From positions 5,084,001-5,148,000 of the forward strand of contig NC_088788.1 of NCBI RefSeq assembly GCF_949628265.1: 64,000 nucleotides of DNA, read 5' to 3'. The translations under genes were made by a program, and so were the position numbers. Shown here piece after piece: positions 9,598-56,354 of this stretch. Every line of letters begins with the position of its first letter. Positions within the stretch are counted from its first letter, which is position 1. The DNA is from Cloeon dipterum. Lineage: Eukaryota > Arthropoda > Insecta > Ephemeroptera > Baetidae. The notes below the pieces were generated by a model. It did not search any database and was not told the DNA's origin. It saw only the letters and a program-made list of their open reading frames with translations.

Positions 9598-10015
9598 CAC
9601 CAGTTGCGACAGCCCTTAGTGATTGAAGACGCCAACAGATGGCGCCATCGTATACTTTAGTAATAAATTTAATTTTAAGGCACTTCCACTGCGATTTTAG
9701 ACTTCATCCTGCCACTGTGGGTTCTTCACTTAATTTTCTTTCTTTTGACGTTCTGAAATCCATAATCGGTTAAGCCAATCGCAATAGAATCGGGAAAAAC
9801 TATTTTTTGAAATATAAAATCATTTCCAACGTTTCTACGGCGAATGGCTGGACTAATTTTGGTTTTCAGCACGTCAAAAGAAAACTTATTAAATGAAGAA
9901 CCCACAGTAGAAGGATTGAGCCTGAAAATCACAGCGGAAGTGCATTAAAATTAAATTTATTACGAAAGTATACAGTGGCGCCATCTGTTGGTGGATTTGA
10001 ACACTATAACTAGTG
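9598..10015. mobile_element. Foldback MITE family A, copy 1
   Basis: Nearly palindromic along its whole length. Ends read CACCAGTTGC and its inverse (AACTAGTG). Each arm carries the block GCCAACAGATGGCGCCA near its tip and GACGT(G)CTGAAA near the centre, with the inverse TTTTCAGCACGTC on the other arm. Bases outside are TA on both sides, a possible TA duplication. No coding capacity. Other copies: 35504-35915, 36746-37170, 39200-39471, 52557-52905 and a relic at 57541-57575. Confidence 0.85.
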
Positions 10016-25200: not shown

Positions 25201-28200
25201 TCCGTGCTGCAGTTGCTCCAGCTTATCGTTAATTTTGATGGCGAGCGGGCGAGGCCCCTTTCGCGCCGTGCCCTTGAGCTTTCGGTGCGGCATGGCGTAG
25301 TGCAGTTTGTCCCAGAACCAGGGTTCGCCCCACTTGACGTACGTGTTCATCGACAAGTAGGCGCGCAGCTCAGGGTCTAGTTTGTCCAGAGGTCCCACGT
25401 CCTCCAGTAGAATCACCAGCACTCTCGCTCGGCCCTCACTCATTGCCTAAAAATTCGGAAATATTAATATTTTGATTGCACATTGAAAGCAGAACTGACT
25501 TGTTGGGATCAATTCTTTTAATTTTATTAAAATTATAACTTTTTAATTATTAATAAATATCTGAAACATATTTTAACTATAAAAATGAATGAATTGTTTT
25601 CAAAATTACAGATTTTTTAAATTATAATTGATAAGGTAGTAACCTTGAACAATTAATAATTTCTCTACGTGAATTATTTTATTGGAAAAATTGTATCATA
25701 TGAAAATGGTCATTTATTATTTGAATCAAATGTCTCACCTGCTGGTGGGCAGCCCTGAATTCCATGCGTCCCCAGACGCTCTCCAGGTAGTTGGGCGACA
25801 GCACCACGATGGTCCGTCGCGACTCCTCGACCGACCTGGCGATCTGGTCTGGAATCCAGTCACCTGCGTTCCAGTCGCGGGCGTGGATGCACAGTTTGAA
25901 CGGCGGCTCGAGGCCAGGTACGAGGGTTTGCGCGACGAACAGCTCATCCTTGTGCGAGTATGAGATGAAGCCGTCGTAGCGCTTGTCTTTGTCCACCTCG
26001 GCTTCGGTGACCAGCCATAGCAGCAGGTTGTGCGCGTAGAGCCACACCTAGATATAGCAGGAAGAAAAATAATATTAGAATATTTGTCAGAGCGCTTTGT
26101 GGCCGGGGCGAAACCGCTCGGAGCGGAAGAGATGCAACCTTTGCCTTGAGAATGACACGACGGAAACACAAAAAAACGTGACTTCTTTGGTTGTTGGAAA
26201 TTCAGAAGTGATTGTTTGGGGGTCAAACGAAATCTTACAGGATTGAATTTAGATTTAAAAGAAATGCGACAGGATAGTTTAATTTATCCGTTTTTTTCCT
26301 TCAAAATCATATTTATCTTTTACGTCAATGCTACTGTTGAATAAATGATATGACGTCATTCAGACCAAAAGAGAGTATATAGGAGCCGCCATGCTGAATT
26401 CTTTTGCATTATTTCGACTTAAAACTTATGCTCTTTGAAGGTAATGCTCACCTTGATCTCGTGCTGGAACTTGTAGTACAGGGCAGCCAGGGCGCCGAGG
26501 ATGATGCCCGCGATGGCGATGAAGACGCTTGCGGCCACGGCTAGCTGGGCATTGTTGCACAATTCGTCAGCACTGAGTTTCGCGAGGGCGCGTCCGTCTT
26601 TGCACGTGACGTTGGCCAGGTCGGCGACGGCTTCGAAGCGGCGCTGCACGAATGCCATCAATTCGAGAGTTTCACAGTCGCAGGTCCACGGATTGTTGGC
26701 CAGCGTGATTCGCTCCGTGTGGTTCAGCCGGGCCAGAACGCTATCGGACAGACGGCTCAGCTGATTTCCGTGCACCTCCAGCACCGTCAGGTTGACCGGG
26801 ATGCTCTGCACGCCAGTCAGGCGGTTGTTTCCCAGGAGCAGCCTTTTGATTTTCAGCTCTGATTGGGAGAAGTTCCCTGACAATCCCTGCAGCCTCAACT
26901 CTCCGATGGTTGCAGAGTAGATCGGCTCAGAGCGGTTGCTTGGCAGTACGAGCGGTGAACTGCAGTTCATGTGAATACTGTTGGTCTCTTTGTTATTCAG
27001 GCAGGTGCAGTTTTTCGGACAATTAAACCCGTCCTTGACTGGACACAGGAAATTCGCGGCTGTGTAGTTTGAAAGACAGGAGCCGGTCACGTTCATGTCC
27101 AGTTTGAACAGCTGCTCTTTGCCGGCGTTCTGGTTCTCCAAAAATTTGAGCAGTTCGTGCGTGACGCAAAACGTGCAGTTGAGGACGCCAGAGTCGACCT
27201 TGATCAGGTTGTTGCTCGGCTGATTGCCAGACGAGATGACGTCGTACGCCCACATGTTGATCAAGGAGACGTTGTTGCCTCTCAGGTCAATCTCAGCGTT
27301 TCTGCACAGAAAGTTGAACTCAACCACGTCGATTATGATTATCTGATTTTCGCGCAGATCAAGCCTCTCCAACTTGGTGAGGGTGTTGCGCCAATCGGCG
27401 GGAATCTCCGAGATCGAATTGTTGCGGAAGGACAGTCTCTGCAGGTTGGTGCACGAGTGGAACGGCGAGTACACTCCGAAAGTATCGCGTATCGCCGAGT
27501 CGAAAGTCAGTTGGTTGTTGTCCATGTCCACGCTGGTCAGCTGCCCGTTGGCGTCGAAGGCGGACGTGCTGATCACGTCCAGCAGGTTGGACCGCATCAC
27601 CAGCGTCGTCAGGGACTTTAGGGGCCGCATTTCCTCTGCGCCCAACTCATACAGCTGATTTCTGGACATGTCCAGGGTTTCTAATACTGAAAGTCCAGTG
27701 AAGTCTGGCACAGAGCTCAAGCGGTTGCCACTCAGGTCGAGATTCTTCAGCGCAGAGCAGTCTTTAAATGTTCCGTCCGGCACGGACGTGAGTTTGTTGC
27801 TCGCCAGGCTGAGCGTCGCCAGGCTCTTGGCACCGTGAAAGGCGTCTTCAGGTAGTGACACCAGTGCGGATCGCTCGATGGACACTTTCTCCAGGGAGGG
27901 AAGGTCGGCCAGGAAGCCAGCTGGAAGGCGCAGCTCCGTGGCGTTGATATCGTTCATCCTCAGATCTGTCAGGTTCTTCACCGTTCTAAGCACCCCTGGT
28001 GGCAGCGCCCTGAAGCGGTTGTTGCTCAGGTTGAGCACTGACAGGTCGGGAAGATGTGCGAAGGCGTCCGCGGCGATGGATACCATTCCGTTTCCGCTCA
28101 CGTCGAGCGAATAAAGCCGCGGAAAACCTTCTAGCGGTGGCAGGGCGCTCACCCTGTTCTTCCACAGGTTGAGAGATTTGAGGAGTGGCAGTTTGGCAGG

Positions 28201-31200
28201 TGGCTGCGTCAGCAGGTTGCTTCCCAACTCGAGCTCCGTCAGCGACTCAGGCAGGTCGGCGGGCAGCGCCCGCAGCTGGTTGTCCCTCAGGTGGAGGCTG
28301 TGCAGACGCTTCAGAGGCGCCAGCAGCCCCTCGGGCAGCTCGGTGATGCGATTGCTGCTCAGCTGGAGCTTGGTCAGGGCCGAGAATCCCTCCAAGTGGC
28401 CCGGCGTCAGGAGGAAGGTGCGCTGCGCGTACTCGGCCACCAGCGACGCCACCTGAGACGCGTTCATCAACTTGGACAGCACCGGCAGCGGGCAAAACTG
28501 CAACAGCACCCTGGCAGGCGCGGTCTCCAAGAACCCGACGGGGCTCAGGTCCTCCTGTCCTGCCGCCTCGGCACACTGCACCTGAAGGTCGTTTCCGTCT
28601 TTCAAGATAACCTTGACGAGGCTGCACTCGATCTCGCGGTCGCCGTTCTGGAAGCGGCCGCACTGGCAGTCCGCGGGACACGCGGCCGCGGCCACCCCGG
28701 CGGCCACCAGGGCCCCGAAGAGCACCCACGGGCCCCACATCACGGCATGCTGTAGCACGAATATTCTCGCCAAAGAGAGAGCACCAGGAAAGAAACGAGC
28801 GAGCGTGTGGAATGGCGCAGCGCTTGCCACCGACTGGTCTCCCTCCCGCTACCTTGCGAGGCGGAGGATGACGCGCACGCTGACGTCACTGCAGAAAGAA
28901 GGAGACGCTGCTCTTCTCTTGGAACGACCGCACGATGAAAATATTATGATCGTACAGGCAAAATAGAGAATTTTCCATAATAAGTGGGGCATTTCCCCTC
29001 GCAGGATTGCATTTTCTTGTCATTCAATGATTTACCAATATATTTTGCGTCGAAATTTCAAGAAACGATCGTGTCAAGGAAAGCTATTACTCTTGCAAGA
29101 TTTATGTGCTGCACTGAAGCATTACACTCCAATTTAAGCCAAATTTCCCGTCCGCCTTCAGCTGGAGTTACAGTTTAAAGTAGTAAATTTATGAATAACA
29201 GAAAAAAATGAGGATAGTTCTTTTTTATTTCAGAGAAATTATGCATCACTTCTTTCATGAGTTGCATTTAATATTCGTAAGAACTTTCATAATGAAAAGT
29301 GTAAACTTCCAAAAGGCTTCACAAATTTTGTTCTTAAGGAGAAAAATAGGTCAAAAATTGCATTTTTGTTTTGTTTACTTGCCTGCAAACCCGCTGAAAC
29401 ACATCCAGATTGGTTCTTTGACCCGCGCGCCACAAGATTTTGACAGCAGGCAGGAAACTATGGCTCTTATCTTGAGATAATGTGTGGTGAATGGTCCAAA
29501 TATCTCACTAGAAAAATGACCCTGCTACAGATACATGGGATAAAAATATTTATTTCCACAGCGAATCATTTAAATTTACACATTTTTTATTCGGAAATAA
29601 CTATTTTGTAATTTAATTTACGCGTTAGCTAAAATTGCGGGTTAAAATTTTAATTCCCTGATCATAGAGGGCGATAAAATTAATCTGTTGATGCGTCGCC
29701 CAAATGATTAAGAGCGTATTTCAAGGTTCAGTGGGGTTAAAAGTTTATCAGTGCCAAATCAGAGAAGCTATTAAGATTGCGTGATTATTGCGCAATTTAA
29801 TTAGCGCGCAGCACTCGAAAGGAAACGTGCTTGTACACGGCATAATAAAAAAGTAAACAATCCCGTTTGAATTGGGAACAGGGGGTGTCGAAATCGATTT
29901 GCGTCGGATCGGGTTTTCCATTCGGGAGCGAGTGCCAAAAGGGTCCTTTGTGCCAACGATGATCTGCAAAATAAACAGCGACACGATTTTGGTGCCGCAC
30001 CTGACTGTGCAGTGCTCGCGCCGTTTGTTGCCAGGTCACTCACTTTTGCCCTTGAAACGCCGAGCGCTCCGCGGTTTCTAAGTGCCGTGCTCGAAAAATT
30101 CAACCACGCGTTTAAAAACAAACTCGGCCTTTTTATAATTAGCAAAATAAAACGGACATGTTGGGATTTCCAAGTCGCCATCGTGGACACACGCACTCGT
30201 CAAGAATTTCGCGCCGATTAAGTATTCTGGACGCGGGCACACGAGCGAGAGAAACGCTCACAGCGGCGGAAAAGTATGCGTGACAATAGCCACGACGCAT
30301 TGAAACTCCAAACACAAAGAGAAAGAAGAGATAATCCGAAATAAATGCCAGCGTCAGGCTTCATCATCTATAATTATCGTGATTGGAGAAGAAAGTTGCC
30401 AAATTTTCAAAAGTCATGTTTGTAGTTTAAAAATATTGCCTCAGCAGGTCAGCGAAAATCCGGTTTTTCAGGTTGCCATTATCGCCAGCAGTTTTCAGCG
30501 GTTGCGCAAAAATTTAAACCTCAGAGGACGAGCTCAACAGGAATTTTTATTAATTTCTCCGCCCAGCTTGCTGCCAAAAAAATAAGTATTACAAAACTGG
30601 CATGAATTTCACAAGTTCAGTGTGGCTGGGAGCTTATTCACTGCACATTTTGCTTAAAAGCCTACTTTTTCACTATTTTTGTTGGCAGAATTCTCAATTA
30701 AAATTAATTGTCGACTGATGATAGCAAAAATGCCGAATCATTGCTGCAAATGAGCATAAAAAACCGTTTTACACAATTTTGATTGCTCGGAATGTGTGGA
30801 TTAAACATCTAAAAATTGCTTTTGAATGTTAAACGGCACAATATTTTTTCTATCACCGAGTTTTGATGCAAATTTGTACATAAAAAATGAATTTATTCCT
30901 GAATGAAAATTATTTTAATTTAAAAAATCATTCTGTTCGCTAATTTGAAATGATAATTCTCTTTAGAAAAATTTTATAGCTGTAGGTACAACCCTGATTT
31001 CAAAAGAGGTGTTTTGTTTTAATTGAATTAGCGCTCACGCCGTGACAAGAGATTGCACTTAAGCTGCGAAGTTGACACTCGCTCGCTTCCCATCAGGTCG
31101 TTGGTATTGTAGGAACCGCAGAGCTCGACGCGATTTATTGCGTTTTATTTTTTTCTGTGGTTTTCCTCACAACACCGTTATTATCTATTTTTATTTTTCG

Positions 31201-34200: not shown

Positions 34201-36383
34201 CTTCTCACCAAATTTTTCTCCCGCTTCCGAAAAATATTTTTATCCTTTTACCGGAATTTCCTCGAGGCCCTATATGTATAGTGAAATATTTATCCTGGGA
34301 CTTCCCGCTCCCGATTCCTCCCGTTCTGTTTCTGTTGTGAATATTTAATTTGACTCTGTTCCCGGGAATTCCCGCTCTTAAATTTCCTGCTTCCGTCCCA
34401 ACCGTCGCTCCATCTAAGAAATTTTGCTCCTGCGGCACCGGGAATTTCCGGGAGATTCCGGGAGTCCCAGCCAACGCACTAACTAGATCTTCTTACATAA
34501 CCAATTTTTCTCAGAGTGTCGAAGCATCGTCAAGAATATAATTTTAAAACTCCTGTTACAGGGTTGCATTTGCTTACCACCCGGTTTTGTTTTTCACCAC
34601 TAGTTTTTACCACTCAATTTTTGCCAATTTGTTGCGCAAGAATTGCAAGAAATGAATTTATTCCATTTTTTTATATGAAAATCTAAAATTTCGTTCGGAG
34701 TGCTCAAAACTTCCTCCACTGTGCAGATTATTTTCTTTTTGCCGCCTCAATTTCTCCAAAAATTTATCTTTGACAATTTTCAAGTCGAGGTTATACGCTA
34801 ATAATTAGTAAATTATTGAAAAATGAGGTGAAAACATTTCCTGCCTGAAAACATTTATAGCCATTATTTAGAAGCGAATGGCGCAAAAAGCATGTTCTCG
34901 CAGATTTTGATAAAACAAAATTTAATCTCTTGTCTGAAAGCAATGAAATATCGATTGTCTCGAGCTTTTAACATTATCTGGCATCGAGTAAATATTTACG
35001 AGTCACCGTTTTTTTCCAAACCTAATCTTATCTCATTGGCACATATATTGCAAGTGCAGCGTTCTGATCAGTGCTGATGATGCTTTCAGTGGCGTCGCTG
35101 GTGCTTTGCAGCGTAATTACCGTCGCCGCCGTCGTTGTGATTTTCGTGCGGCGCCGCTACCCGCTGCTCTGCCTCTCGTGGCGCTTCCCCTGGCCCTCGT
35201 CTGCCTCGCACACCCAGGTCCACTATTCGAGGGTGAGTATCTCAACCAAAAAGCGCCGACTTAGTGTGGAAAAATATTAATCGCTGTTTGCTTTAAATGA
35301 GATAATCAACGTGAATATTGTCCAGAAAATGTTTCTGATTGAGACAGCAAAATTGCTAATATCATTCCTCTCATGAAATTAATTTTTTTGTTTGATTTTA
35401 AAAATTTTTATTGATCTAGATATCAATTTTCATGATATTTTGCTCGAAAATTTTGCTTTTACAGCTAAAACTGTTGTTTTTCTGTTTTTTAAAAAAATTC
35501 ATGCACTAGTTGCATGAACCCTTAGTGTTTGAAGCCGCCAACAGATGGCGCCACCGTATACTTTCGTAATAAATTTAATTTTTAGACACTTCCGCTGCGA
35601 TTTCAGACTTAATCTAGCTGCTGTGCATTCTTCACTTAATTTTCTTTCTTTTGACGTTCTGAAAACCAAAATCAGTCCAGCCATTCACCGTAGAAACGTC
35701 GGAAAAGATTTTACATTTCAAAAAATAGTTTTTCACGATTCTACGGCTTTTGGCTTAACCGATTTTGGTTTTCAGCACGTCAAAAGAAAGCAAATTAAGT
35801 GAAGAATGCACAGCAGCTAGATTAAGTCTGAAATCGCTGCGGAAGTGTCTTAAAATTAAATTAATTACGAAAGTATACAGTGCCGCCATCTGTTGGCGTC
35901 TTATTACAACTGGTGAATTAATCTAGATATCAATTTTCTTGATATTTTGCTTAAAAATTTGTTTTTGCAGCTAAAACTTTTTTTCAATTTCTTTTAGATT
36001 TAATTATTAATTTTTTTTAATTTGCTGTGCCAATTTTCAGTCCCTTATACTAGTTGAATCCATCAAAGTGAACCATTCTTTTGTCCCGGAAAGCCTTTGT
36101 GTTCGCTTTGTATTCGACCATGTTTTTGCAAAAAAAAATAATTTCACTCGCGTCTGCTTTTCGTCTGGCTTGTCGTGTCTAACGTGGCTGTGTGTTCTCT
36201 CTGTTTCTTTTCTTTGGCGTTGCTGCGTGGTCGTCTGGTTGGCGCGGTGTGGCAGGAGACGCTGAGCACGTACTGAGCGCGCGGAGCGATTTGCAGGCGC
36301 TGTCGGTGGCCGAGGCCAACGCCGCCCTGCACAACCACCAGGAGCTTGAGTGGGACAGCGACGAGGAACTGCTCAAGTTGTGA
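16220..36383 (+). CDS. Lerp: Mannose-6-phosphate/IGF2 receptor-like sorting receptor (Lerp/IGF2R type), 15 exons
   Basis: Exons: 16220-16341, 16529-16814, 18738-19271, 20431-20587, 20646-20765, 20825-20976, 21236-21611, 22006-22267, 22674-23283, 23906-24313, 24399-24738, 24799-24872, 33613-33760, 35090-35232 and 36297-36383. All phases agree and give 1272 aa. A signal peptide ([15 protein letters not shown]) is followed by about eight repeats of roughly 145 residues, each with the MRH (mannose-6-phosphate receptor homology) signature of a DLSPL-like strand, NVCxPL, an aromatic-GG-x-C turn and a W-x-T/S..AC end. Exon 14 encodes the transmembrane segment ([12 protein letters not shown]). The tail ends DSDEELLKL, matching the acidic-dileucine GGA-binding signal of this family. 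Expected role: carrying lysosomal hydrolases from Golgi to endosomes. Mammalian receptors have 15 repeats and fly Lerp fewer. Ligand residues were not checked. Polyadenylation signal at 36554-36559. Confidence 0.87.
18173..18316. repeat. Hairpin MITE family B, copy 1
   Basis: Two 40-base arms (18173-18212 and 18277-18316) are inverse complements at 39 of 40 positions, starting AATTCGTCCTGG and ending CCAGGACGAATT, around a loop of about 64 bases. The low divergence suggests a recent insertion or selection for the hairpin. A decayed relative lies near 43938-44050. Confidence 0.85.
18375..18630. repeat. Dispersed repeat family D, copy 1
   Basis: Similar by eye to 43540-43790 in the same orientation. 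Shared words include TTTCAAGTAA, GACACAGTTC-like, AACTTTGCAG, GGCAACAAG-like and CCTCTTTAAAACCATTTT. No terminal repeats found. Both copies lie close to a family B hairpin. Confidence 0.55.
19272..20430 (+). other. Intron 3 of the receptor gene
   Basis: About 1.16 kb, AT-rich, ending in an unusual TCCTCAAG acceptor (AAG rather than CAG). Nothing else recognised. Confidence 0.75.
25195..28740 (-). CDS. Toll: Toll receptor (Toll-1-like), nested in the receptor gene's intron 12
   Basis: Three coding exons: 28740-26452, 26047-25739 and 25446-25195, all phase 0, giving 949 aa. I start at [15 protein letters not shown] because a signal peptide follows directly; an in-frame ATG 30 codons upstream would bury it. 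The ectodomain has an N-terminal cysteine cap (CPADCQC), about 15 leucine-rich repeats, a C-terminal cap, a second N-cap (CPKNCTC) with short repeats and a second C-cap (NPWTCDC). This multiple-cysteine-cluster layout is typical of Drosophila Toll. A transmembrane helix ([17 protein letters not shown]) precedes the cytoplasmic TIR domain with box 1 [12 protein letters not shown], box 2 [17 protein letters not shown] and box 3 FWDKL. Role: Spatzle-type ligand receptor signalling through MyD88 to Rel factors. The gene is complete and lies entirely inside an intron of the opposite-strand sorting receptor. Confidence 0.96.
28741..28960 (-). promoter_or_regulatory. Upstream region of Toll with CRE site
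   Basis: GC-rich sequence just 5' of the Toll start, with a perfect CRE palindrome TGACGTCA at 28881-28888. A possible splice acceptor (GTGCTACAG, on the minus strand near 28752) sits just before the start codon, so the true transcription start could be an exon further right. Confidence 0.4.
28961..33612. other. Rest of receptor intron 12, upstream of Toll
   Basis: 4.6 kb with no convincing coding exon. Mildly GC-richer patches at about 29880-30270 and 32060-32290 could be 5' untranslated exons or enhancers of Toll. The remainder is AT-rich. Confidence 0.5.
34253..34468. promoter_or_regulatory. Cluster of kappaB-like (Rel-binding) sites
   Basis: Within 216 bases of receptor intron 13 there are GGAATTTCC (34253-34261), GGGACTTCCC (34297-34306), GGGAATTCCC (34364-34373), GGGAATTTCC (34440-34449), GGGAGATTCC (34450-34459) and GGGAGTCCC (34460-34468). 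Several fit GGGRNNYYCC, and 34364-34373 fits the insect Dorsal-type GGGWWWWCCM pattern. It lies about 5.5 kb upstream of Toll. It could instead be a decayed simple repeat of a GGAATTCCG-like unit. Confidence 0.45.
34560..34850 (+). repeat. Dispersed repeat family E, copy 1
   Basis: Matches 47555-47840 on the opposite strand by eye. Shared words: GGGTTGC-TTTGCTTACCACCCGGTT, AAATGAATTTAT, GAAAATCTAAAATTT, TGTGCAGATT and ATTTCTCCA. Roughly 280 bases, no coding capacity. Confidence 0.6.
35504..35915. mobile_element. Foldback MITE family A, copy 2
   Basis: Inserted in the last intron of the sorting receptor gene. Ends CACTAGTTGC and its inverse CAACTGGTG. Both arms carry the CCAACAGATGGCG block and the central GACGT-CTGAAAACCAAAATC / GATTTTGGTTTTCAGCACGTC pair. 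Almost the whole 412 bases can fold on itself. Confidence 0.88.
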
Positions 36384-36745: not shown

Positions 36746-37170
36746 ACCAGTTGCATAAACCCTTAGTTATTGAAGCCGCCAACAGATGGCGCAACCACAG
36801 ACTTTCTTAAAAATTTTGTTTTAAGCGATTTTAAGGCATTTCCGCTGCGATTTCAGACTCAATCTAGCTATTTTGCTTTTTTTAATTAATTTGCTTTATT
36901 TTTGACGTGCTGAAAACCAAAATCGGTTCAGCCATTCGCCGTAGAAACGTTGGAAAAGATTTTTTTATTTCAAAAAATAGTTTTTCACGATTCTACGGCG
37001 ATTGGCTGAACCGATTTTGGTTTTCAGCACGTCAAAAATTAGCAAATTAATTGAAGAATGCACGGTAGCTAGATTGAGTCTGAAATCGCTGCGGAAGTGC
37101 CTTAAAATCGAAAGTACACGGTGGCGCCATCTGTTGGCGGCTTCGAACACTTAGGGTTTATGCAACTGGT
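36746..37170. mobile_element. Foldback MITE family A, copy 3
   Basis: Best preserved copy. The ends ACCAGTTGCATAAACCCTTAG and their inverse are near perfect, and both arms carry GCCGCCAACAGATGGCGC. Lies about 190 bases beyond the poly(A) signal of the sorting receptor. Confidence 0.9.
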
Positions 37171-38963: not shown

Positions 38964-41900
38964 CTACGTCCTCGGCGGCACCACCACCCAGTCGTGCGGC
39001 GACCCTCGCGCCCTCCGGATCAGCTCCAGCTGCCGCCGCAAATTCCGCTGCAGCTGCTCCAGGTTCTCCTGAGGAACACAAGACGAAAAATATGCAGATT
39101 TATTAAACAAATAGTTACAAACAAAATAGGACAAGGAGTGATGCTTTTCGATTATTTGAACTGATTTTTTTTAAATTTTGTGAATTAATTAGTAGCAAAA
39201 TCCGCCAACAGATGGCGCCAGATTAAGACTGAATCCTGCCATTGTGGATTTTTCACTTAAAATGTTTACTTTTGACGTGCTGAAAACCAAAATCGCCGTA
39301 GAAAAAGTGGAAAACAATTTTTACGAAATAAAAAAATCTTTGCTGACATTTATACGGCAATTTGCAGGACTGATTATTGTTTTCAGCACATGAAAATAAA
39401 TAATTTTAAGAGCAAAAATCTAAAGAAACTACTGGCACCATCTATTAGCGGCTTCTAAAACTAAGGGCTCTTGAAAATTGCCTCAAAAAGCCAATAAAAC
39501 AACTCCTTTTACAGTCTAATGACAAGAAATTTGTTAAGAATGATACTGTTTAGTTGGAAGCGATTTTATTTAGGTCGTGAATTTTTTTCAAAACTTTTAA
39601 ACTTCAATTTAAGTCATTCTTGGAGCTCGAGGAAATGACTAAATACTTGAAATTGTAGTTTTTTTTAATTTTAGACAAGTTTAAATAAAGTCAAAAATTC
39701 TGAAAAATTTATAAATGGCCTCTAAGGTTTTTCTGTATCTTTAAAACGCGTTAAAAACAAAATCGTAAAATAAAAACTGAGCTTAAAATTATTTGCGATT
39801 TTCTGGTAACTTTTGTGTCCATGTTAACATGTTCTATGGCAGTGGAAAATAAGTTTTATAAACAAAATCAAATAACTGGAGCTACTTTATCTGATATCGT
39901 GCCTTTTGAAGCCCTTTACGAGATATTTCTGGCAAAAATACAAATCTAGGGACACTCTGAAAAGCCAAAATTACACTAATTTGATTGGTTTTTAGTCATA
40001 AAAGGGCGTGAATGAATCAAAACTGGCTCAAAAATTCGATTTTAAAGCATTTTCAGGTTAACACACAATCAGTCCAATCACCATAGAATTAAAAACCCTT
40101 GTAATAGTTCGTAAATTATCAGAAAGTGCACTAATTTTTTAAATTTTACCAAAAACTGATGCACATGATACAAAACGTTTACTTGTTCAGCACATTTTTA
40201 AAATTTAGAGGGTACTTTTCCAATAATCCTCTAAATTGTTTAACAAAATCAAATTTTAAAATAATAGAGAAACTAAAAAATTGCAGAAACCCTTGATCCA
40301 TCATATTTTAGATAAATTTTATCCTTTTAAAAGGCTCTTTGTCCGCAAACAAAGGACTGGAAAGATACTATTCAATCTAAATTCTAGAAGCAATGTTTTC
40401 AGAAGCTTACGTTATTCCGTTCTCAACACGGGAATAATAAAAAATGCGTTTTTTCCAGTCTGTCCAGAAAAATGCGTCGATATCAAACTGATTATGTCAT
40501 AATTCCAATAATTTAGTGTATGGAGGCATTGTTGCCCTGGCAACCTATAAAATTCAAGGCCCAATTTAATCCTGAAATCAGATACACACGAAAAATTAAA
40601 AAAAAGAAGATTTAAATTACATTTTGCACTGCTAACGTCGTCATTGAGCCAAAACACATTTTTTAAACGAGAAAAGACCCGATAAAATGGATAATTTTAA
40701 CCGATGAAAAGAATAAAGTATCTTTTGGTCCACTCAAAGCGATACTTTAGGAATTTCAAGCAATTTATGGTCAGGAAATGTCTTTTTGCTCAAGAGGAGC
40801 GGCGGAAATATTTAATAGGGCGGCGGGTGCCAGGCAGGCGTGTGAGTCATGCTTGGAATCAACAGAGGCGCGCTCGCTTGACAACAGAGGAGCGAAAATA
40901 AACATTGTCCGCCAAATTTTACCAAGTGCCACTTACCAGGACGCAATTTATTTTCATATTTTTGTCTTATAAATTTTTTTAAATTCATTTTATAACTCGC
41001 AATGCAACATCGAAAGTACTGGTGAATAATTTTTTATTTATTACCATCACACGGAAGGTTAATAAATTATTTTCTATAATTTTTTTGCGAAGGACCTGAA
41101 AAAATTTGCTCGGCAATGAATTTTGTTTTTCATAATATTTCGGTGATAAATTAGAAAATTAATCTTTAATATTTGGAATTAAAAGCCAATTTAAATTAAA
41201 ACTACTCTTGGAATAGTAAGAAAAAAGTATTTTTTAGTTAAATAATCCATCAGAATTTTACGAAAAAATTTAATTTAAAAATAATAGAATTTAAATGTCA
41301 AAATTAAGAAAAAAATTACCTTCTCGCTCTCGAGCTTGGCGAGCTCCTCGAGTTGCTGGCTGGGCTGCTGGAGCTGCTCCTCTGAGAGCCTCTCGGCCAG
41401 GTTGTCCCTGTGCTGGCGCGTGTAGGCCATTTCCGTCTGCACCCTGAAGTACTCCTGCGCCAGCTGCTTGTGCTCGTTGAAGACCCGCAGCGAGTCGGGG
41501 TTGTCCGGGTCGGGCGGCAGCGGCTGCAGCTTCGGGTCCAGCATCTGGTACACGTTGTCCAGCTCCTCTGCAACACGCGCGCACACACACACACACCGCG
41601 GTGAGAGCAAGCGAGAGAAGCGCACACACACGCACACACAGCTTCTAAATCCGGAGGAGCAGCGCGCGCTGACTCACCCGCGCTAAATGGGGAGCGCGCG
41701 TGCCGGCCACTCGGCGCACACCGCGGCCCTCTGCCCCCGACGGGCCCGACCCGTTTCCCAAATCATCATTTTTTTTTAAGCTGGCCGGCCTTCTCCGAAA
41801 CGCGCATCATACTTCCTCGTACGAAAATACACTTCCAGAAACAGAAGAGAATTGTTTGATTGGTCTTTCGGCTTAATTTTAAGTGTTTACAGGTGCCAAC

Positions 41901-47900: not shown

Positions 47901-50900
47901 TTTAGAAAGAGTTCAAATTAAAATTAAAAGGAGGAAAATGAATAATAGAATAAATAAAATTGACAAGAGATCATTAGAAAATTATTGAAAACTAAGGTAT
48001 AAACATTGCCTGCAGACCCTGGTGAACTTTGAAAAAAAAAAACGTTTTTTACGGCTGAATTTTTAAAATAACGTTTTTTATCAACCCTGTTTTGGAAATT
48101 TTGATATAAAATGAGTGATTTTTCAGAAACAAATGCTAAATTTTAGCGGAAAACATGCCTCAAAAACTGCGTTCGACAATTTCGAGTTATAATGCAGCAT
48201 TGTTTTTTTGCGCGAAAATCAGCTGGAAAGAACACGAGTTTTAGGGTTTTCCATATTTTTCAGAAATTAACTCTAAAATAGTCACATATCGAGGATTTCT
48301 TTTTTAAATAAGGATGCGGATTTTGGCGAACCCTGCTCAAAGCTTGTCTAGTTAGCGAGGAAAACAGGTCAAGGTAATTTTCGGAATAAAACCTCTCCCA
48401 GTATTTCTTTTTTTTTAAGAAAAATTAACCGTCTTCGTATCTAATAGGAGACTCACCAGTAGGGATGGGTTTGGCCTCCTCGACAGGGCTGATCTCGTCA
48501 CCGACCTCCCACTGGTCGTTGTTGATGTTGGACTGGCGCATTTGCGGCCGCTTGGGCGGCTGCAGCAGCGTGGTGGGCCGTGTGGCCGTGATTGCCTCCA
48601 GCCTGGCGAACGGGTGCGGCCGCAGCTCAACCTCAGGCAGCGGTGCCAGCGTCTCCGGCTCCGACACCTGCACCGACAGCGGCGCCAGCTGGGTCGAAAG
48701 CACCGAGCTGATTGTTCCGTTTAGCGACGTGGCTGAAACACAAAACGGATTGCGTTCTGGAAAAGAATTCTTCAGCAAAATTAATTGAAAAATAAAACGC
48801 ATTTGAATTTTTTGAAATTATTATGGCTGCTATTTAATTTCTTGTATTCGATTTGTGTTAAATAAATGAGAGGATGCCTGTGTAGTTTTTTTTAAAAATT
48901 CTGTAACAGAGAATTTGCAGTGCATATATTCGCAAAAATCGTGAAAGTTCGTTTATTTCCAATTTAAATGTAGAATTTCTCTTCCAAATTTTCACTTAAC
49001 GGATCAAAAATTAAAAACAAATCTTTAACCCCCAACTGTAAAAATTTCAAAGATTTTTTCCCACAGATTTTGAAGATTTAAAGCCACAAATTTTCCTAAT
49101 ACTCTTATTTTCCTTTTCCAATATTTCAGATTTTCCTGGTCTCCTCAGAGATAGAGGAGGAAACGGCAGCTAGAATTATTGTCAATTAAAATTTTCTGTG
49201 AATAGTTGGCAGGCAAACTGTTTTGGATCGTAACGCGTGGGCTTTCCCCTGGCGAGACAAGCGGTGATTTACAACACTCGAAAAAAAATAGCAAATCGTC
49301 GACAAACGGACATAGCTAATGTAAAAAGCACAATGTTGCCTTTGTTCCTCCTAATTACGTTTAAAAAAAATAAGTAAACAAGCTAAGACTAAACTAATTC
49401 GTAGCTACCTCTGTCAAGGTTTAATGGTCTCCCAACAATTACTTTTAATTTATTACTAAAAATCATCCATAAGATTTTAAATTAAATTTTTAGCAATCAT
49501 CAGCGGAAAAATGACAGAAAATACCATTACATGCATAAATTTTGCGTTTGAGACCATGTATTGTATTGTCTGTATCGCGTTTCTCCCCAAGCTGCACACG
49601 GTTGATTATGACTTCGAGTACAATATGTCCCAGTTAGTCAGGGAAATCAAGGAACAAGGATTTGGCGAACTCCCTCTTTCACCAAAACACCGTTTGAGTG
49701 TTTCGCAACTCGAAATGTTTGGACAAGAGGACCTTTTTCAGTTCCTTTGTGTCCTTGGTTTGGAAAAATCCAAGGTCTATACAGTTGGACGTCTTTCAGC
49801 GGCAAATGAAAAAGTGGAAAAGGGGCAAATATTGTATTCAAATTCATTCTGAGATAAAAATAATAAAATTTGTGATTAAAATTTTGATTTTTTTAACTTT
49901 ATACCTTGGCCTGGTTGCCGTTTTAATTTCTGAAAAATCAGATCCAAATGTTGGATTGGAATCAAGCAGAGAGCAAAAAATCATGATTATAATTTAATTT
50001 AATTTTATGAGAAATTTGTTACTTTGTAGCGATGAATTTAATCCTGGTCTTTCACGAACAATTCTAATTGCCTCCATTTTCTAGTTAATTTTGTTTTCTT
50101 TTATAAATGAAATATCCATTTTTTTCATTCTATTCACCAAAGAGTTGCTTTTTATTATCCACGTTGTAATAAGTAAAATTATTGGGAAAAAATATTTTAA
50201 AAATAATACTCCTCTCCGATAGGTGGAACGACGAGAAAACACTGTGTACGATCGGTTTTTAATTTAAAATAATCATCATTACATATGAGACAGAACACGT
50301 TGTTTAATTTTCTCTAAATCTTTTTATTATTTATGTGACGATCACTTTTTTCTGAAATTTTAAATTAACTCTTGTGATGTTAGTTAACAGCGGGAGCCAG
50401 ATGTGCGATGATATTGGTTCCCAGTGCGCAGATCCAAGATGGCGTCTGAATGTGGGAAGCAAAAAGCTCTATTTGGATTGCCGTACGAGTGTCAAGTTTT
50501 TTTTACGATCCAAAAGACACAATTAATTCAAGTAATGCAAATTAATCCCAATATTGACACGAAAACTTGCTTCTTTTCGCGCATTTTGACGTGCCATACT
50601 CCACCGGACGCCATATCTGCGCGTCGCACGAATCTGGACCCTCCTGTTAGTTAAGACTTGAATGGAAATTTTTGTCAATCACTGCGCTACATTCGTACAA
50701 AAAATAATTCTCTCCTTACTACCGACGTACGCATATTTGGCCAAAAGCCACAGTAAGGGACCGAGAGCTTCTTGTGATAGAGATCCAAGGCAAGAAATCT
50801 TTCCGATTAAGGTAAATTCAAATCTAATTCTTTGTGTTAATAGCCTGGGTCAAGTGCACAATTGACTGACTTTAAAAGCCTGATGCACGGAATCAACTTT

Positions 50901-53900
50901 CTTGTAAAATATAATTAGTAATAATTAATTAATTTATTTGAAGATTAAATTGTTTTATTTTGATCTGAATATGTGTGCTACATGGAATTCAGGATAAATT
51001 TAACCATTTATTATCTCGTTAGACTTTTTAATTACTGCTTGGTGCAAATGCAACACGCATTTTTTGGATAAATAATTCATTTTCGATAATTCCATAATGC
51101 TGGAATCTGAGCAATGAAGGCAAAAATTCTGTAAAAATATTCGAGATATTCCACAAATGTGACAAGAACGCGCACATAGCTTTTACGCGCATAGAAAATT
51201 TACAATTCGATTTCTGGAACTGTTGAGGTGGATAAAAAGTACTCTAAAATCTCTTAATTAACCTAGTTAATTATTTAATTATTATTTATATTTAAATTCC
51301 AGCAGCACTAAAAACACTCCTGCGCAATGAGTCGGCATTCCCCTGAACCTGCCTCAGCTGAAAGTGGTGAATATAAGGCTACGAGTCAGCATTTGAGATC
51401 TTTGCTGCATGCCTGGAAATGTGGGCACAAACAGACTCAAGACCAAAGTGGGATGCCCGCACCGGAGGTAAAATTTGGAAGACTTTTTTTCAACTAAATA
51501 AGAATATTTTTATAGTGTCCCTATCCCGGCTGCACGGAAATGAAGGATCTTGTGAACCATATTCTTATCTGCACGAATGACCATTCTTGCGACACGTATC
51601 TCTGCGTGGCATCTAAAACGATTTTATCGCACTGGATGAAGTGCACCGAGCATAACTGTCCCTTATGCTCGCCTTCAAGGCAGATGGAGAACCTGCGTGG
51701 TATTTATAACAAGTTGCAGAAAATCTAAATCTCGCATCAGCATTGTTGATGCGGTTGAATGAAACTCTTTTCAGGAGGACGCTTTTTCAATATGAAAAAT
51801 TATAACATTTTTTTCAGAGGTAGAACCCGCTATATCTGGACTCATCAAGACCATTGAAGACTGTAAGGAAGTCTTAAAAAAGAATAATGAAAAGGCGGAC
51901 AATCTCGAGATCATATTTCAGGACACCATCCATGAAATTGACACAATCGTTAACATTGCTTTGGACGCACAAAATTCTGAAAGTAAGTGACAACTATAGC
52001 TCGTGCATTAATTAATAACAAAAATAATTTTATAAATTTACAAAAACTAAAACCGCTTATATGCAGGATAATTCAATCCGTCCTGCATGATAGATATTAT
52101 AAAAAGTATATGACCTCCTGGACACGAATCTGCTGCGCCCAGAAAGTCCTGGGACACTGAGTCCTTATCAGCAGCGATTTTTGTATGTTTGTAATATAAA
52201 AATATTATTGAAGGAAAGGGTGAAGTCGCAGCTGGACCTCTGAATCCGATTGGATACTTGCAGCGTAACAAGCAGGTTTTGAGCCCTATTTTAGAGACTG
52301 ATGAGAATTCTGTTGGTGAAAACAGCGATCTAGTTCCAGACGACAATACTCATATTAGCCTACCCATGAACTCTGATGTAAGTGTTTTTTCTATTAAAAA
52401 AATAGCGTTTTTAAACTTAAATTTTCACAGATTGAATTGCGCCATACACCAGCAACGAGAACGTATATTGATAGCCAACAGTGTAAGTGCTGTAATATAT
52501 AGGAAATTATTTTAATTTATCAGCTTACTTAAAATTTTTAAATATATCTATTATAAAAGCCCTTATTGTTGGATTAAGCCGCTAACAGATGGCGCCTACG
52601 TATGCTCTCGTAATAAATTTTATTTTAAGGTACTTTCGCTGCGATTTCGGACTCAATCTTGCCACTGTGCATTCTTCACTTAATATTTATTCTTTTGACG
52701 TGCTGAAAACCAAAATCGGTTAAGCCAATCGCTGTAAAATTTTGAAAAACTATTTTTTGACACGTAAACTTTTTTCCAATGTTTCTATGGCAAATGGCTG
52801 GAATGATTTTGGTTTTCAGCACGTCAAAAGAAACTATTTTCAAGTGAAAATGCGCAGAAGAAGGATATTGAGTCTGAAATCGCAGCGGAAATGCCTTAAA
52901 AATAAATTTTAAACAGAGAACATAAATAAATAAATGAAACAGAGAACGGCGCAAAGTTTTTTTTTAACTTAAAGGCGCGTGAAATGAAAAAATGGAAAAG
53001 ATTAAAATTATGGGTGGCTTGCTGGCTGGCGCGACTCAGCCGATAAAAAAGGTCGGTGGCTGGCGGCTCGAGATAAGGACCGGCTGAGTCGGCTGGCTCA
53101 GATGTCTACATGTTTTATATTAACATTCATTGAAAAATCCTAAAAAAGTCCTAAAATAAATTAATTTTTATCAGATCTGAATAAAAACTAAATAATTAGT
53201 ACAGTTTTTACCTCCCGACAAGAAAAGGTAGGCCTTAATTTCTGAAATTCGTTTCATTTAATTAAATAAAAGCTTGATAAAAATTCCTAACTCACTGGTT
53301 TGGGGTCCAAAGGTCTCCATTGTGTCCTCATCATCATCTTCGTCTTCATCCTCTTCATTTTCGCTGCTTTGGCCTTCGTACTCGATGATGGGCAGTTCGC
53401 CGCCAGGAAAGTGGACGGCCAGCCGCTCCATTCGCTCCACGACCTCGACCATGGCCGGCCGTTCAGACGACTCCTTCTCCCAACAACTGGTCATCAGCGC
53501 CTCCAGCGGCGGAGGGCAGTTAGCGATCAGTGGCGGCCGCTGGCCCGTGTGCACCGCCCAGAGAATAGCCACCGTCGCGCCTTTGATGTTGTCGAAGGGC
53601 CGCCGCCTCGTCAACACCTTCGAAAATTGATTGAAATAAGAAATTTGCTGATAAGTCCCAAATAAAATATATTTTTTTAAATTATCATAGTAAAAATTGG
53701 CAAATTATTTATAAAAATTCATTTTAAAACGAATCAAATTAAATAAAACGAAGAAATACCTTTTAAAAGGATTTGCTTACAATACAGATTAAAGAAATTA
53801 AAAGAAAAATCCAATTCTTTAACAAATAAAAAAATCACTCTTCAAGAAATTATTCTTTCTCCATTTACCTCCCACAAAATAATTCCCCAGCTGAAGACAT

Positions 53901-54968
53901 CACACTTCTCCGTGTAGCTGGACCCCTCGAAGACCTCTGGCGCCATCCAGGCGGCCGAGCCCTGGTTGTTGGTCAGATGTCCGCAAGTGGTGAGGTCCCG
54001 CGCCGTGCCAAAATCGCAGATCTTGAGCCTCGTCCCGCCTCGGTCCACGAGCAGCAGGTTTGGCGGCTTCAGGTCGCGGTGAATCACCTTCGGCTGCAGG
54101 CTGTGCAGGTAGGCCACGCCCCTGGCGCACTGCAGAGCCCAGCTGATGGCGTGACCGGCCGTGTACGTCCGGTAGGGCCGGCTGTGCAGCACTACAATGG
54201 ATTTAAATAGGAGAAATTTAAAAATTTGACGAAATTTTGGTGGAATTACATTAAGGGGCAAGTAGGTACAGATCTCGTCATGAGGAAAAACGGTGTGATA
54301 GATTATTTGAAGTTTTTCCTCCTTTATTTAGGCGAGAAATGGTCACGTTACAGTTAGTGACCACTAGTTATTTATCTAATCATGCCAATTTGAAGGAGGG
54401 AAATGAGCTTTGTAATGATCCGATTATTCATAAAAAGCAATTTCTAAAAATAAATAAATAAAGTGTCCCAGAATCAATAAATACAAGGAAAAACTACAGT
54501 AGTGGACCACTTGCACGAAGCAATCTTATTTATGTACATCTAATTATTGATTTCAGTCCGAATTCCAAGCTGGACAATTAACAATAAATTAATTTTCCTC
54601 CTTACGATTGTAGAGGGATCCGCCCTCCGCGAATTCCATCACGAGGCACACGGGCCGGACGGTGCTGGCCCCGTAGAGACGGATGATGTTCTCGTGCCGG
54701 ACGCGGGACAACTGCTTCTTCTCGACGGCAAAGGCGCGCTTCTCCGAGTCGGACTCGATGAACTTGACGGCGACCGGACGCTGCCGCCACTCGGCGCGCC
54801 ACACCACGCCGAACGATCCGCGGCCGACCACCTGAAACGGCGCACACACTTTGCAGACCCGCTCGGCGGCCGTAGGGACACTCGCTCCCGGACACTCACC
54901 TCGACCTTGAACAGCTCCGCCGAGTCGATCTCCTCGACGAACAGTTGCTCCTCCTTCGGCTGCGCCAT
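38964..54968 (-). CDS. Tak1: TAK1 kinase (MAP3K7)
   Basis: Exons: 54968-54900, 54831-54606, 54191-53869, 53617-53296, 48732-48457, optional 47090-47001, 41567-41320 and 39068-38964. Phases agree throughout; 522 aa, or 552 with the optional exon. Kinase domain: glycine loop [11 protein letters not shown], Lys46 in [19 protein letters not shown] with Asp138, CDFGTA with Asp158, [20 protein letters not shown] activation loop and [13 protein letters not shown] Glu/Asp-rich stretch and a variable linker follow. The C-terminal exons ([12 protein letters not shown], then a coiled coil ending [10 protein letters not shown]) match the TAB2/TAB3-binding tail of TAK1. It relays IMD/TNF-type signals to IKK and JNK. 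The 3' untranslated region is CGG-rich and reaches AATAAA-type signals near 38660. Shares a short spacer with the divergent ZAD gene. Confidence 0.96.
39200..39471. mobile_element. Foldback MITE family A, copy 4 (truncated, diverged)
   Basis: Sits in the last intron of TAK1. Keeps CCGCCAACAGATGGCGCCA at the left, GACGTGCTGAAAACCAAAATC in the centre and TGGCACCATCTATTAGCGG at the right. Outer ends are partly lost. Confidence 0.75.
39472..41319 (-). other. Remainder of the last TAK1 intron
   Basis: AT-rich apart from a small GC-richer patch near 40790-40910. No exon recognised. Confidence 0.65.
41576..41640. repeat. Interrupted (CA)n/(TG)n tract at a TAK1 splice acceptor
   Basis: On the minus strand, the transcript sequence just before the acceptor of exon 41567-41320 is TG-rich: two TG runs separated by a pyrimidine-rich segment, then GCGCGCGTGTTGCAG. 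The repeat therefore serves as, or sits in, the polypyrimidine region of this acceptor. Confidence 0.8.
43540..43790. repeat. Dispersed repeat family D, copy 2
   Basis: Counterpart of 18375-18630, same orientation, clearly diverged. Shares GTTTCAAGTAAAGACACAG, AACTTTGCAG and CCTCTTTAAAACCATTTTTT. Confidence 0.55.
43938..44050. repeat. Hairpin MITE family B, decayed copy
   Basis: Matches the loop and inner arm of 18173-18316 (AACAAACACT, GTCGAATTGATTGTTAC, TTTTCTT, CAGGACGGATT). The arms no longer pair well. Confidence 0.5.
44200..44620. promoter_or_regulatory. GC-rich island inside a TAK1 intron
   Basis: Strong CpG-rich block (start GATGGCCCGGGCCCGCGG) with open frames on both strands that are Arg/Pro/Ala-rich and unlike any protein I know. 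It may be an intronic promoter; no exon with matching splice phase was found. Confidence 0.3.
44621..46860. other. TAK1 intron, no gene seen
   Basis: AT-rich apart from a GC-richer patch at about 45860-46080 with repeated CTCGCTCG words. No exon, RNA or element recognised. Confidence 0.6.
46883..46904 (-). CDS. Tak1: Possible alternative first coding exon of TAK1
   Basis: In a GC-rich island, ATG (46904-46902) opens seven codons (MSSAAAS) plus one base, then a strong donor G|GTGAGTGCC. This phase 1 end fits the next TAK1 exon (41567-41320). The product would be MSSAAAS joined to the TAB-binding tail, without the kinase domain. Seen: ATG, donor and phase match. Inferred: that the island is a promoter. 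Confidence 0.35.
47001..47090 (-). CDS. Tak1: Probable 90-base cassette exon of TAK1
   Basis: Flanked by TTGTTTCAG on the left and a GTGAGT donor on the right, in the transcript direction. It is 90 bases long, starts and ends in phase 1 and stays open, adding an Ala/Thr-rich then Gly/Ser-rich 30-residue linker ([19 protein letters not shown]...). It sits between the 48732-48457 and 41567-41320 exons, in the variable linker where mammalian TAK1 also has an alternative exon. Confidence 0.55.
47555..47840 (-). repeat. Dispersed repeat family E, copy 2
   Basis: Inverse-orientation counterpart of 34560-34850; see the shared words there. Confidence 0.6.
49511..49852 (+). CDS. Open frame of unknown status, 113 codons
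   Basis: ATG-initiated frame with moderately complex sequence (for example [21 protein letters not shown] and [20 protein letters not shown]). I recognise no domain. Codon use is AT-rich, unlike the confident exons but like the neighbouring TAZ1 gene. There is no signal peptide or membrane segment beyond a weak hydrophobic N-terminal part. It could be an exon of the TAZ1 gene's neighbourhood, a pseudogene fragment or chance. Confidence 0.25.
   Translation: MTENTITCINFAFETMYCIVCIAFLPKLHTVDYDFEYNMSQLVREIKEQGFGELPLSPKHRLSVSQLEMFGQEDLFQFLCVLGLEKSKVYTVGRLSAANEKVEKGQILYSNSF
50388..50646. mobile_element. hAT-type MITE, copy 2, with perfect 8-bp target duplication
   Basis: Ends CAGCGGGAGCCAGAT and, inverted, CAGGAGGGTCCAGATTC. 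TTAGTTAA occurs at 50380-50387 and again at 50647-50654. Opposite orientation to copy 3 at 62922-63182, with which it shares nearly all its 259 bases. Confidence 0.9.
51327..52502 (+). CDS. Stand-alone TAZ1-type zinc-finger protein, nested in TAK1
   Basis: Exons: 51327-51467, 51516-51699, 51818-51982, 52214-52377 and 52431-52502; phases agree; 241 aa. Residues about 24-105 form a TAZ1 domain as in CBP/p300. All three HCCC zinc sites are visible: HAWKC with CPYPGC, HILIC with CDTYLC, and HWMKC with CPLC. The core words MKDLVNH and SHWMKC are close to those of CBP. A charged helical part ([17 protein letters not shown]) follows, then a polar tail. No bromodomain, KIX or acetyltransferase exon is nearby, so this is not CBP itself. 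TAZ1 domains bind activation domains of transcription factors; a role as adaptor or competitor is inference. Codons are AT-rich, unlike TAK1. A second donor (GTAAGT at 52486) could extend the gene, and exon 4 uses an AAG acceptor. Confidence 0.7.
52557..52905. mobile_element. Foldback MITE family A, copy 5 (right end lost)
   Basis: Begins AGCCCTTATTG, carries GCTAACAGATGGCGCC and GACGTGCTGAAAACCAAAATC with its inverse, and fades after GCCTTAAAA. Lies 55 bases beyond the stop of the TAZ1 gene. Confidence 0.82.
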
Positions 54969-55378
54969 CGGCACGCCGCCGCGGACAAAGAAATCGGGCG
55001 AAAAGAGCGCGGACGACACTTTGGTACCAAAACACCTTAACCCTAGGTAGCCGCCATTTTCCTTCCGGCTGACAGTGTTGCCGCGATGCCCGTTTTGAGC
55101 GCGGTAAACCTGAGTTTTTCGGTGAAATTCAAGTATTTAAGAATAAAATTCTTTCTTTTAGTTGATTTCTTTAAAAACAATTCATGAAAACATCTTTATT
55201 TATTTGTTTTTGGGAATTTTCACCGAAGAATGTGGGTAAAATGCAACGACGCCACACGTGGTATGGGGGCGTGTCCTTTGTTTTCATTCAGCTATCAGCT
55301 GCGGGGGAAAATCAACACAACACAAACACTGACGCCGAAACGGCTGTTGTTGTCGGCTGAGAATTTGACATTTCTGCG
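54969..55378. promoter_or_regulatory. Bidirectional promoter of TAK1 and the ZAD gene
   Basis: 410 bases between two divergent start codons. Contains GCCGCCATTTTCCTTCCGG (about 55050), which reads as adjacent YY1-like and ETS-like sites, the usual make-up of housekeeping bidirectional promoters. No TATA box seen. Confidence 0.55.
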
Positions 55379-56354
55379 ATGGACGCCCTAAAACTTTGCC
55401 GATTTTGCCACCAAAAGGGTCAGATCGATTTGAACCAAGACAAATCGGGTGAATTAGTGAAGAGAATTAAACTGGTCGTTTCATTCAAGGTTTGTTTGCA
55501 ACCTTTACTTCCGTAATACATATTCCTAAAATTTTGACTTATTCCAGTTTGAGCTTCGGCCGGAGCTGTCCACTCTACTCTGCAAGGAATGCTTCAAGGA
55601 TATTAAGACGTCTTACGCGTTTCAGATGAAATGCCTGAAACACGAAAACCTTATGCGGAAGAGAGCAAAACTCCTGGCCCCTGAGGTCAAGGTTGACAGT
55701 TATTCGACTGATGTCAACGAATCCAATACCACCTCAGTAATATCATAATTAGAATTTTTTCTTTAGTGTTAATAATAAAATTCACCAGTTGCTTTCGGAC
55801 TCGGGCCTGCAAGTTCTGCGACAGAACATCAAACAGCTGAACGATCAAATCGCTACAATGAAGCAGGATAAAATCCTTTTCGTGGACAAAATAAAAATTC
55901 TCGAGCAGGAGAGGGATGACCTGAAGAGATCTTTGATGCAGTACACCATAAGTAGGATCTATGTGGTTTTAAAATTGGACTTATTAAAAAATTTCAAATT
56001 GCAGCCCTACCTGATATTACGAAAAACATATCGAGCCTGTTGTCCCGCATGGAGCAGCAGTTCGTCAACATGAACACTCGCATAATTCCTGACAATTACG
56101 TGGAGACGAGAGCCAGGAGTCCCATTGTCTCGATTTCAGTAAACCAAAAGTCCTGCGATTTGGACGATGAAATGTAATTATAGTTATTTCTTATTGGCAT
56201 GGTTTTAACACATTTTTCTAGGGTTATTGGAGACATGAACGAAGATGAGGATGAGGACGAGTTGCTGCTGCAAGGTGTCACGACAATTTGGGATCCAAGT
56301 GCACACAAATCTAATTTTTATACAGTCCTTGTGGCAAGACGACCGATAACTTAG
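55379..56354 (+). CDS. ZAD-domain protein with coiled coil, no C2H2 fingers
   Basis: Exons: 55379-55489, 55548-55736, 55789-55951, 56005-56173 and 56222-56354; phases agree; 254 aa. The N-terminal about 80 residues match the zinc-finger-associated domain: CRFC in the first exon and CKEC in the second form the zinc-binding four-cysteine set, followed by the helix FQMKCLKHENLMRK. The middle (ISRMEQ-like and KQLNDQIATMKQDKILFVDK) is a predicted coiled coil, then an acidic stretch (EDEDEDELLLQG). Insect ZAD proteins normally carry a C2H2 array; none is present here and the frame ends cleanly. ZAD domains dimerise, so a dimerisation partner or chromatin role is possible. No ortholog recognised. 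Confidence 0.75.

Follow-up and report, generated by a model that had tools for sequence, protein, structure and literature searches.

The window, a 64,000-nucleotide stretch of the Cloeon dipterum genome, carries in an intron of TAK1 what we read as a dispersed, 3'-truncated gene, probably still coding, from a large family derived from the TAZ1 domain of CBP; its product may act as a decoy or adaptor lacking an acetyltransferase (HAT). Judged from sequence, we give this reading a probability of about 0.45. Rebuilding the exons yields a 241-aa product from five exons on the plus strand (window 51327–52505, stop included), with all four introns bounded by GT–AG and compatible in phase. The exons, together with the remnant of a further one, are as follows.

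51327–51467, plus strand: exon 1, with the start codon and TAZ1 helix 1 carrying an H and a C ligand (LLHAWKC); ends in phase 0
51516–51699, plus strand: exon 2, the TAZ1 core with the remaining ten zinc ligands; acceptor at the same position as in the TAZ1 core of the genome's CBP
51818–51982, plus strand: exon 3, helical or coiled-coil-like by eye; the array genes carry this module repeatedly (phase 1 to phase 1)
52067–52243, plus strand: exon 4' remnant, open in the array copies, with a stop and a frameshift in the window (by eye)
52214–52377, plus strand: exon 4, an acidic segment, open in all five aligned copies; the least certain exon
52431–52505, plus strand: exon 5, with a conserved GTAAGT donor after 52482; its final six residues are former intron

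The five phase-consistent exons and complete set of HCCC zinc sites described by the initial annotation are reproduced in this model. In Pfam, zf-TAZ is its sole domain above cut-off (E = 3e-13, 50.5 bits against a cut-off of 25), and its best solved relatives are p300/CBP TAZ1 chains (8.4e-17 to 4.6e-15), with TAZ2 fusion chains far weaker (0.04–0.7). All 12 zinc ligands are present as three HCCC sites at TAZ1 spacing, and not one of them differs from copies 6830 and 6842, against 31 and 29 changed residues among 108. KIX, bromodomain and acetyltransferase give no Pfam match in the model, which agrees, for the model itself, with the earlier description of a CBP-type TAZ1 protein lacking these parts, and a genome profile search finds no KIX at the window. 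The protein is predicted to fold as a TAZ1 domain with a helical tail and no acetyltransferase.

The 3' end of the model has a different character. The other four aligned copies share the GTAAGT donor at 52483, and the model reaches its final six residues and stop by reading through it, so exon 5 would probably not come last in a natural gene. Exon 4' overlaps exon 4; it was considered as the true fourth exon, and by eye its frame is open in the array copies and broken by a stop and a frameshift in the window. Exon 3 plus exon 4' gives no Pfam match.

The host gene lies on the opposite strand, with its kinase exons to the right of the unit.

53261–55128, minus strand: kinase-domain exons of TAK1 (MAP3K7), matching the solved TAK1 kinase (E about 3e-108)

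These exons confirm that the TAZ1 gene is antisense to TAK1 and within its intron. On the host strand, the open exons that flank the TAZ unit are at 53.26 and 48.82 kb. The 48.82-kb exon and another at 41.3 kb (41278–41673), a candidate for the C-terminus, are assigned to TAK1 tentatively, by eye; the C-terminal candidate has no convincing solved relative (best E 0.27). Just upstream of TAK1 and divergent from it, window 55530–55748 (plus strand) gives a zf-AD match below cut-off (23.6 against 28 bits). Elsewhere in the window, two open frames in 18639–23292 (plus strand) match cation-independent mannose-6-phosphate-receptor repeats (CIMR) and are probably parts of one large receptor gene, and an 809-aa open frame at 26422–28848 (minus strand) is rich in leucine-rich repeats and, by eye, probably carries a signal peptide and a membrane segment.

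The copy in the window turns out to have many relatives. The genome search covered one genome (190 Mb, 10 contigs), so any lineage-specificity of the TAZ family is presumed from this genome. Profile searches return at least 48 zf-TAZ matches, all above cut-off, which alignment and tree divide into 41 TAZ1-like and 7 TAZ2-like cores, CBP's own included; the window copy is one of these 48, which does not support the earlier idea of a single undescribed component. The same searches find one acetyltransferase match, at CBP on contig C2, and three KIX matches, two at CBP and one sub-threshold on C3 at 34.3 Mb. The genome thus has one complete-looking CBP, on the minus strand of C2 (TAZ1 at 22126863, KIX at 22125546, HAT at 22118353, TAZ2 at 22115190). 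A literature search of partial coverage found no report of a TAZ-only expansion in animals.

The zinc scaffold is widely kept across the family. All ten core ligands are retained in 35 of the 41 TAZ1-like cores; of the other six, three show a substituted ligand, two are partial and one is cut by the end of the match. Each of the 39 complete TAZ1-like cores (the two partial ones left out), CBP and the window included, has its first core Cys codon immediately preceded by an AG acceptor. This shared acceptor is a sign of spliced coding origin and points to duplication of DNA rather than retrocopying; it speaks for an origin of the TAZ family in CBP TAZ1 exons that were copied at the DNA level. 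The TAZ2 core, too, seems to have been copied independently, as six TAZ2-like cores are found besides CBP's (C2:31.985, 31.987, 22.079 and 22.0995 Mb, C1:29.50 Mb and C3:7.327 Mb).

We placed the copies on a tree of the cores, built on 52 columns from 46 of the 48 (two partial cores omitted) and with 10 of its 41 inner branches starred. The fork between TAZ1-like and TAZ2-like cores has a support of 88/88 and is not starred, and the window falls on the TAZ1 side. There it pairs with a copy at C2:3782 (95/75, not starred), and the pair sits inside the A clade of a large array on C2. A lone decayed CBP fragment is rejected as a description of the window copy, which the tree places with the array rather than CBP and whose reading frame is kept. 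That description suits the CBP-like pieces at C2:22.1386–22.1389 Mb better. Two extra TAZ1-core pieces lie there upstream of CBP (C2:22138628–22138908), one identical to the CBP core at 50 of 52 positions and the other broken; they may stem from a partial duplication of exons of CBP itself.

Most of the family is concentrated in this array, with 29 of the 48 cores within C2:6.78–6.88 Mb. Two clades stand apart in the tree, an A clade of 17 rows, window included (support 86/98, not starred), and a B clade of 14 rows (90/70). With the exception of the core at 6875568, the B-type cores (13 of 14) come next after an A-type core on the same strand; for one of them, the preceding A is an A-like core at C2:7883480. 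The 6.83-Mb array unit carries exon 3 more than once, and by eye the frame can continue in phase into the exon before the B core; CTG replaces CAG at some of its exon 3 acceptors, and the gene models in this unit are approximate. The most likely product of an array gene is a protein with two TAZ domains linked through helical modules. In the window copy the core is of A type, belonging to the A clade, and no second, B-type core follows it: the zf-TAZ search gives a single match in the window. The earlier label of a TAZ1-only protein therefore holds for the model as it stands, although the single domain is owed in part to the lack of the second TAZ exon that the array genes have. Among and beside the TAZ array, at C2:6.858–6.880 Mb and C2:6.772 Mb, there are also repeated leucine-rich, F-box-like open frames (by eye), and a second gene family seems to have expanded in this region.

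The relationship to the array and to the C2:3782 copy extends well beyond the exons, to a unit that makes up most of the TAK1 intron.

49573–53116, plus strand: moved unit of about 3.5 kb, filling most of the TAK1 intron; both breakpoints are shared with C2:3780673–3784335
52576–52910, no strand assigned: palindromic, MITE-like dispersed repeat inside the moved unit
52914–53116, plus strand: right end of the unit, largely made up of a dispersed repeat with at least 40 matches (40 scored of 60 candidates)

Window 49573–53116 aligns to C2:3780673–3784335 in two pieces, at 89% and 92%, and window 50390–52913 matches three array units at 85–90%. The left breakpoint also borders the array unit at C2:6828402. 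The window copy is a moved unit from the array lineage that lacks the second TAZ exon. At its left end, window 49481–49852 (plus strand) holds a 123-aa open frame with no Pfam match. The palindromic repeat (about 330–400 bases; matched at 52549–52912 inside the unit) is seen again at window 9594–10006, 35496–35910 and 36773–37166, making at least four in the window, and occurs several times in the TAZ array region.

Two dispersed copies with identical breakpoints on both sides, the left of which also bounds an array unit, are what would be expected if the unit were a transposable element that had captured a TAZ gene and was spreading it. We consider this quite improbable. No terminal repeats or target-site duplication are recognised by eye; the left breakpoint is preceded by A and begins with TC, and no Helitron-like right end is recognised by eye at the unit. 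The first 280 bases occur only four times in the genome, once with no TAZ match nearby. As the right 200 bases are mostly the dispersed repeat, this sequence may partly account for the shared right breakpoint, and segmental duplication explains the whole pattern equally well.

The origin of the unit also bears on its location. The initial annotation had taken the position inside the gene of an NF-kappaB-pathway kinase as a hint of function, and a component of the TAK1/NF-kappaB pathway, sited in the intron for co-regulation, would fit with an interaction of CBP/p300 with RelA (described in the portion of PMC3760798 available to us) and with Dorsal binding by a viral TAZ-finger protein (likewise from a portion of PMC12187017). 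We regard this as very improbable. The segment has moved, its sister unit lies on another contig, its array relatives are far from TAK1, and the unit plus its own upstream region simply fills the intron. The hint therefore falls away: since the unit came from the array lineage and has a sister elsewhere, its location in TAK1 is most simply taken as incidental, and the intron position is discarded as functional evidence.

The sister unit provides a direct comparison for what has happened to the window copy. At C2:3782 the gene is frameshifted, exon 1 contains a stop, one zinc ligand is gone, and three of the four exon indels are out of frame. The indels private to the window number two in the exons, both of 3 nt, and nine in the non-coding DNA, of which two are at alignment ends and none of the other seven is a multiple of 3. 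We then divided the substitutions among the branches that join the copies. On the internal branch there are 39/654 exon against 7/712 non-coding changes (one-sided p = 1.4e-7), a roughly sixfold difference in rate, with 32 replacement and 4 silent changes; the excess persists for exons 1–3 (p = 1e-7) and exons 1–2 (p = 0.0008), and the changes may belong to the dispersed pair, to the array or to both. On the branch to the decayed copy, exons and non-coding DNA are alike (14/654 against 18/712, one-sided p = 0.74). The window branch lies between, with 27/654 against 15/712 (about a twofold rate in exons, p = 0.022) and a ratio of 25 N:2 S that does not differ significantly from the neutral value of about 3.8:1 (p = 0.06). 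Dropping two sites beside a gap raises the p value of its excess to 0.042 and dropping exon 4 raises it to 0.10, and the TAZ exons (1–2) by themselves give 0.23, so the signal on the window branch is weak and fragile and depends on exon 4.

These data are where our preferred reading meets its most serious competitor, a young, non-functional segmental duplicate that is becoming a pseudogene, with a frame that is intact through youth and changes that mostly took place in the parent lineage before the move. We regard this as a real possibility, if short of an even chance. The strongest excess is on the internal branch, where it is common to both dispersed copies or belongs to the array lineage; the window's own excess loses significance when exon 4 is set aside; and the missing second TAZ domain, the broken exon 4', the truncation and the want of a natural last exon are all expected of a dying copy, as the sister unit already is. 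Against it, the window branch with exon 4 included is still in excess, the window's exon indels are exclusively in frame, unlike those of the sister, and no zinc ligand has been lost. The notion of a decayed CBP fragment, raised earlier as one finding that would undo the claim of a gene, is answered in part: the retained frame and ligands lean toward a copy that still codes, while the truncation and the broken exon 4' fit one that is dying.

Across exons 1–4 the pairwise dN/dS values in the window's clade run from 1.05 to 3.0, and the optimum of a codon model lies at an omega of about 2–3, although synonymous counts in these selection tests are small. With five copies, 2ΔlnL against omega = 1 is 14.6 for exons 1–4, 9.1 for exons 1–3 and 5.8 for exons 1–2; leaving out the decayed copy lowers these to 9.45, 4.17 and 1.15, the last of which leaves the TAZ exons alone not significant. 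The 34 close pairs of cores show how far this extends. Ten are in the window's clade, with dN/dS of 1.2–1.9, one pair at 13 N:0 S and one identical. Among the 24 outside it, 18 have dN/dS of 0.27–0.94 and four have 1.22, 1.22, 1.69 and 1.98, the rest being one identical pair and one at 3 N:0 S. The TAZ core changes significantly faster than neighbouring DNA in two of five pairs in the window's clade and in none of 11 outside; in several outside pairs the core is much slower than its flanks, partly because the flanks no longer align. The acceleration is not general, and the family's zinc scaffold looks conserved, with one fast-changing subgroup.

It is unlikely, in our view, that the acceleration is an artefact of introns held alike by conversion or constraint, or of a higher mutation rate in exons. 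Such an effect would account for a synonymous divergence in the exons (0.08–0.09, from few synonymous counts) above that of the introns (about 0.045) when the window is compared with array copies. Non-synonymous divergence, at 0.17–0.19, is still higher than synonymous divergence, and the equal exon and non-coding rates on the branch of the decayed sister speak against the artefact as well.

Taken as a still coding member of the family, the window copy would have the following history. The TAZ1 exons of CBP were presumably duplicated as DNA and gave rise to a large TAZ family, with an array on C2 made mostly of two-TAZ genes in which an A core precedes a B core. A unit of about 3.5 kb from the array lineage then moved, without the B exon, into the TAK1 intron, which is a landing site only. 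We hypothesize that the window protein binds in place of CBP to activation domains that normally recruit it and, bringing no acetyltransferase, acts as a decoy; it could instead be an adaptor if the helical part causes dimerisation. The zinc-sparing change in the window's clade may reflect selection for altered partner binding.

A bolder extension of this scheme is that, in this insect lineage, the CBP TAZ1 domain was cut loose and multiplied to about 40 HAT-less decoy or adaptor domains. Part of them would be changing through positive selection, driven by an arms race for access to the activation domains of host factors that evolve rapidly or of viral or selfish ones, and the family would be colonising sites like the TAK1 intron. 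We offer this as speculation, and as somewhat unlikely in its entirety. A genome that has one full CBP and dozens of HAT-less copies of its TAZ1 exons, with a few of TAZ2, would offer a natural experiment in how decoys affect coactivator recruitment, in which it could be tested which activation domains the free TAZ domains bind and whether host–virus or intragenomic conflict drives their change. The window copy and its decayed sister of the same origin, which serves as an internal control, make a convenient test case.

CBP is usually a single or few-copy gene and highly conserved, and the binding of RelA goes through its TAZ1 domain. The window protein is like CBP/p300 TAZ1 in sequence relationship, in its 12 zinc ligands, in an acceptor site before the core as in the genome's CBP, and in its affinity to TAZ1 and not TAZ2. 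It is unlike it in having no adjoining KIX or acetyltransferase, in the helical-looking and then acidic segment after the core, and in the core itself, which is identical to the genome's own CBP TAZ1 at 21 of 51 positions. As to partners, available portions of the literature describe binding of the HIF-1alpha activation domain by CBP TAZ1 (PMC5959852, PMC6851107) and interaction of RelA with CBP/p300 (PMC3760798). A parallel in architecture may come from white spot syndrome virus (WSSV), whose 624-aa protein wsv100 is described, in the available part of the source, as having a coiled coil and a TAZ finger, with residues 125–248 binding the Rel homology domain of Dorsal and blocking Dorsal phosphorylation (PMC12187017). 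By that description the two proteins would share a coiled coil, which exon 3 resembles by eye, plus a TAZ zinc finger, and on the viral side the NF-kappaB factor Dorsal is the protein bound. This lends some weight to the competitor or decoy idea; the available part does not pin the binding on the TAZ finger (PMC12187017), and we treat the parallel as a lead only.

Plant BTB–TAZ proteins resemble the window protein in having a TAZ domain and no acetyltransferase. They carry a BTB domain, for which the window model gives no Pfam match. At the level of the family, the general pattern of comparison is that of duplicated, fast-changing genes that stand in tandem arrays and keep conserved introns. 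The TAZ family departs from this pattern in its substrate, a coactivator docking domain, and in the absence of the acceleration from 11 pairs of other TAZ subgroups; it agrees with it in the window's clade, where exons outpace introns, and in its combination of an array with dispersed copies.
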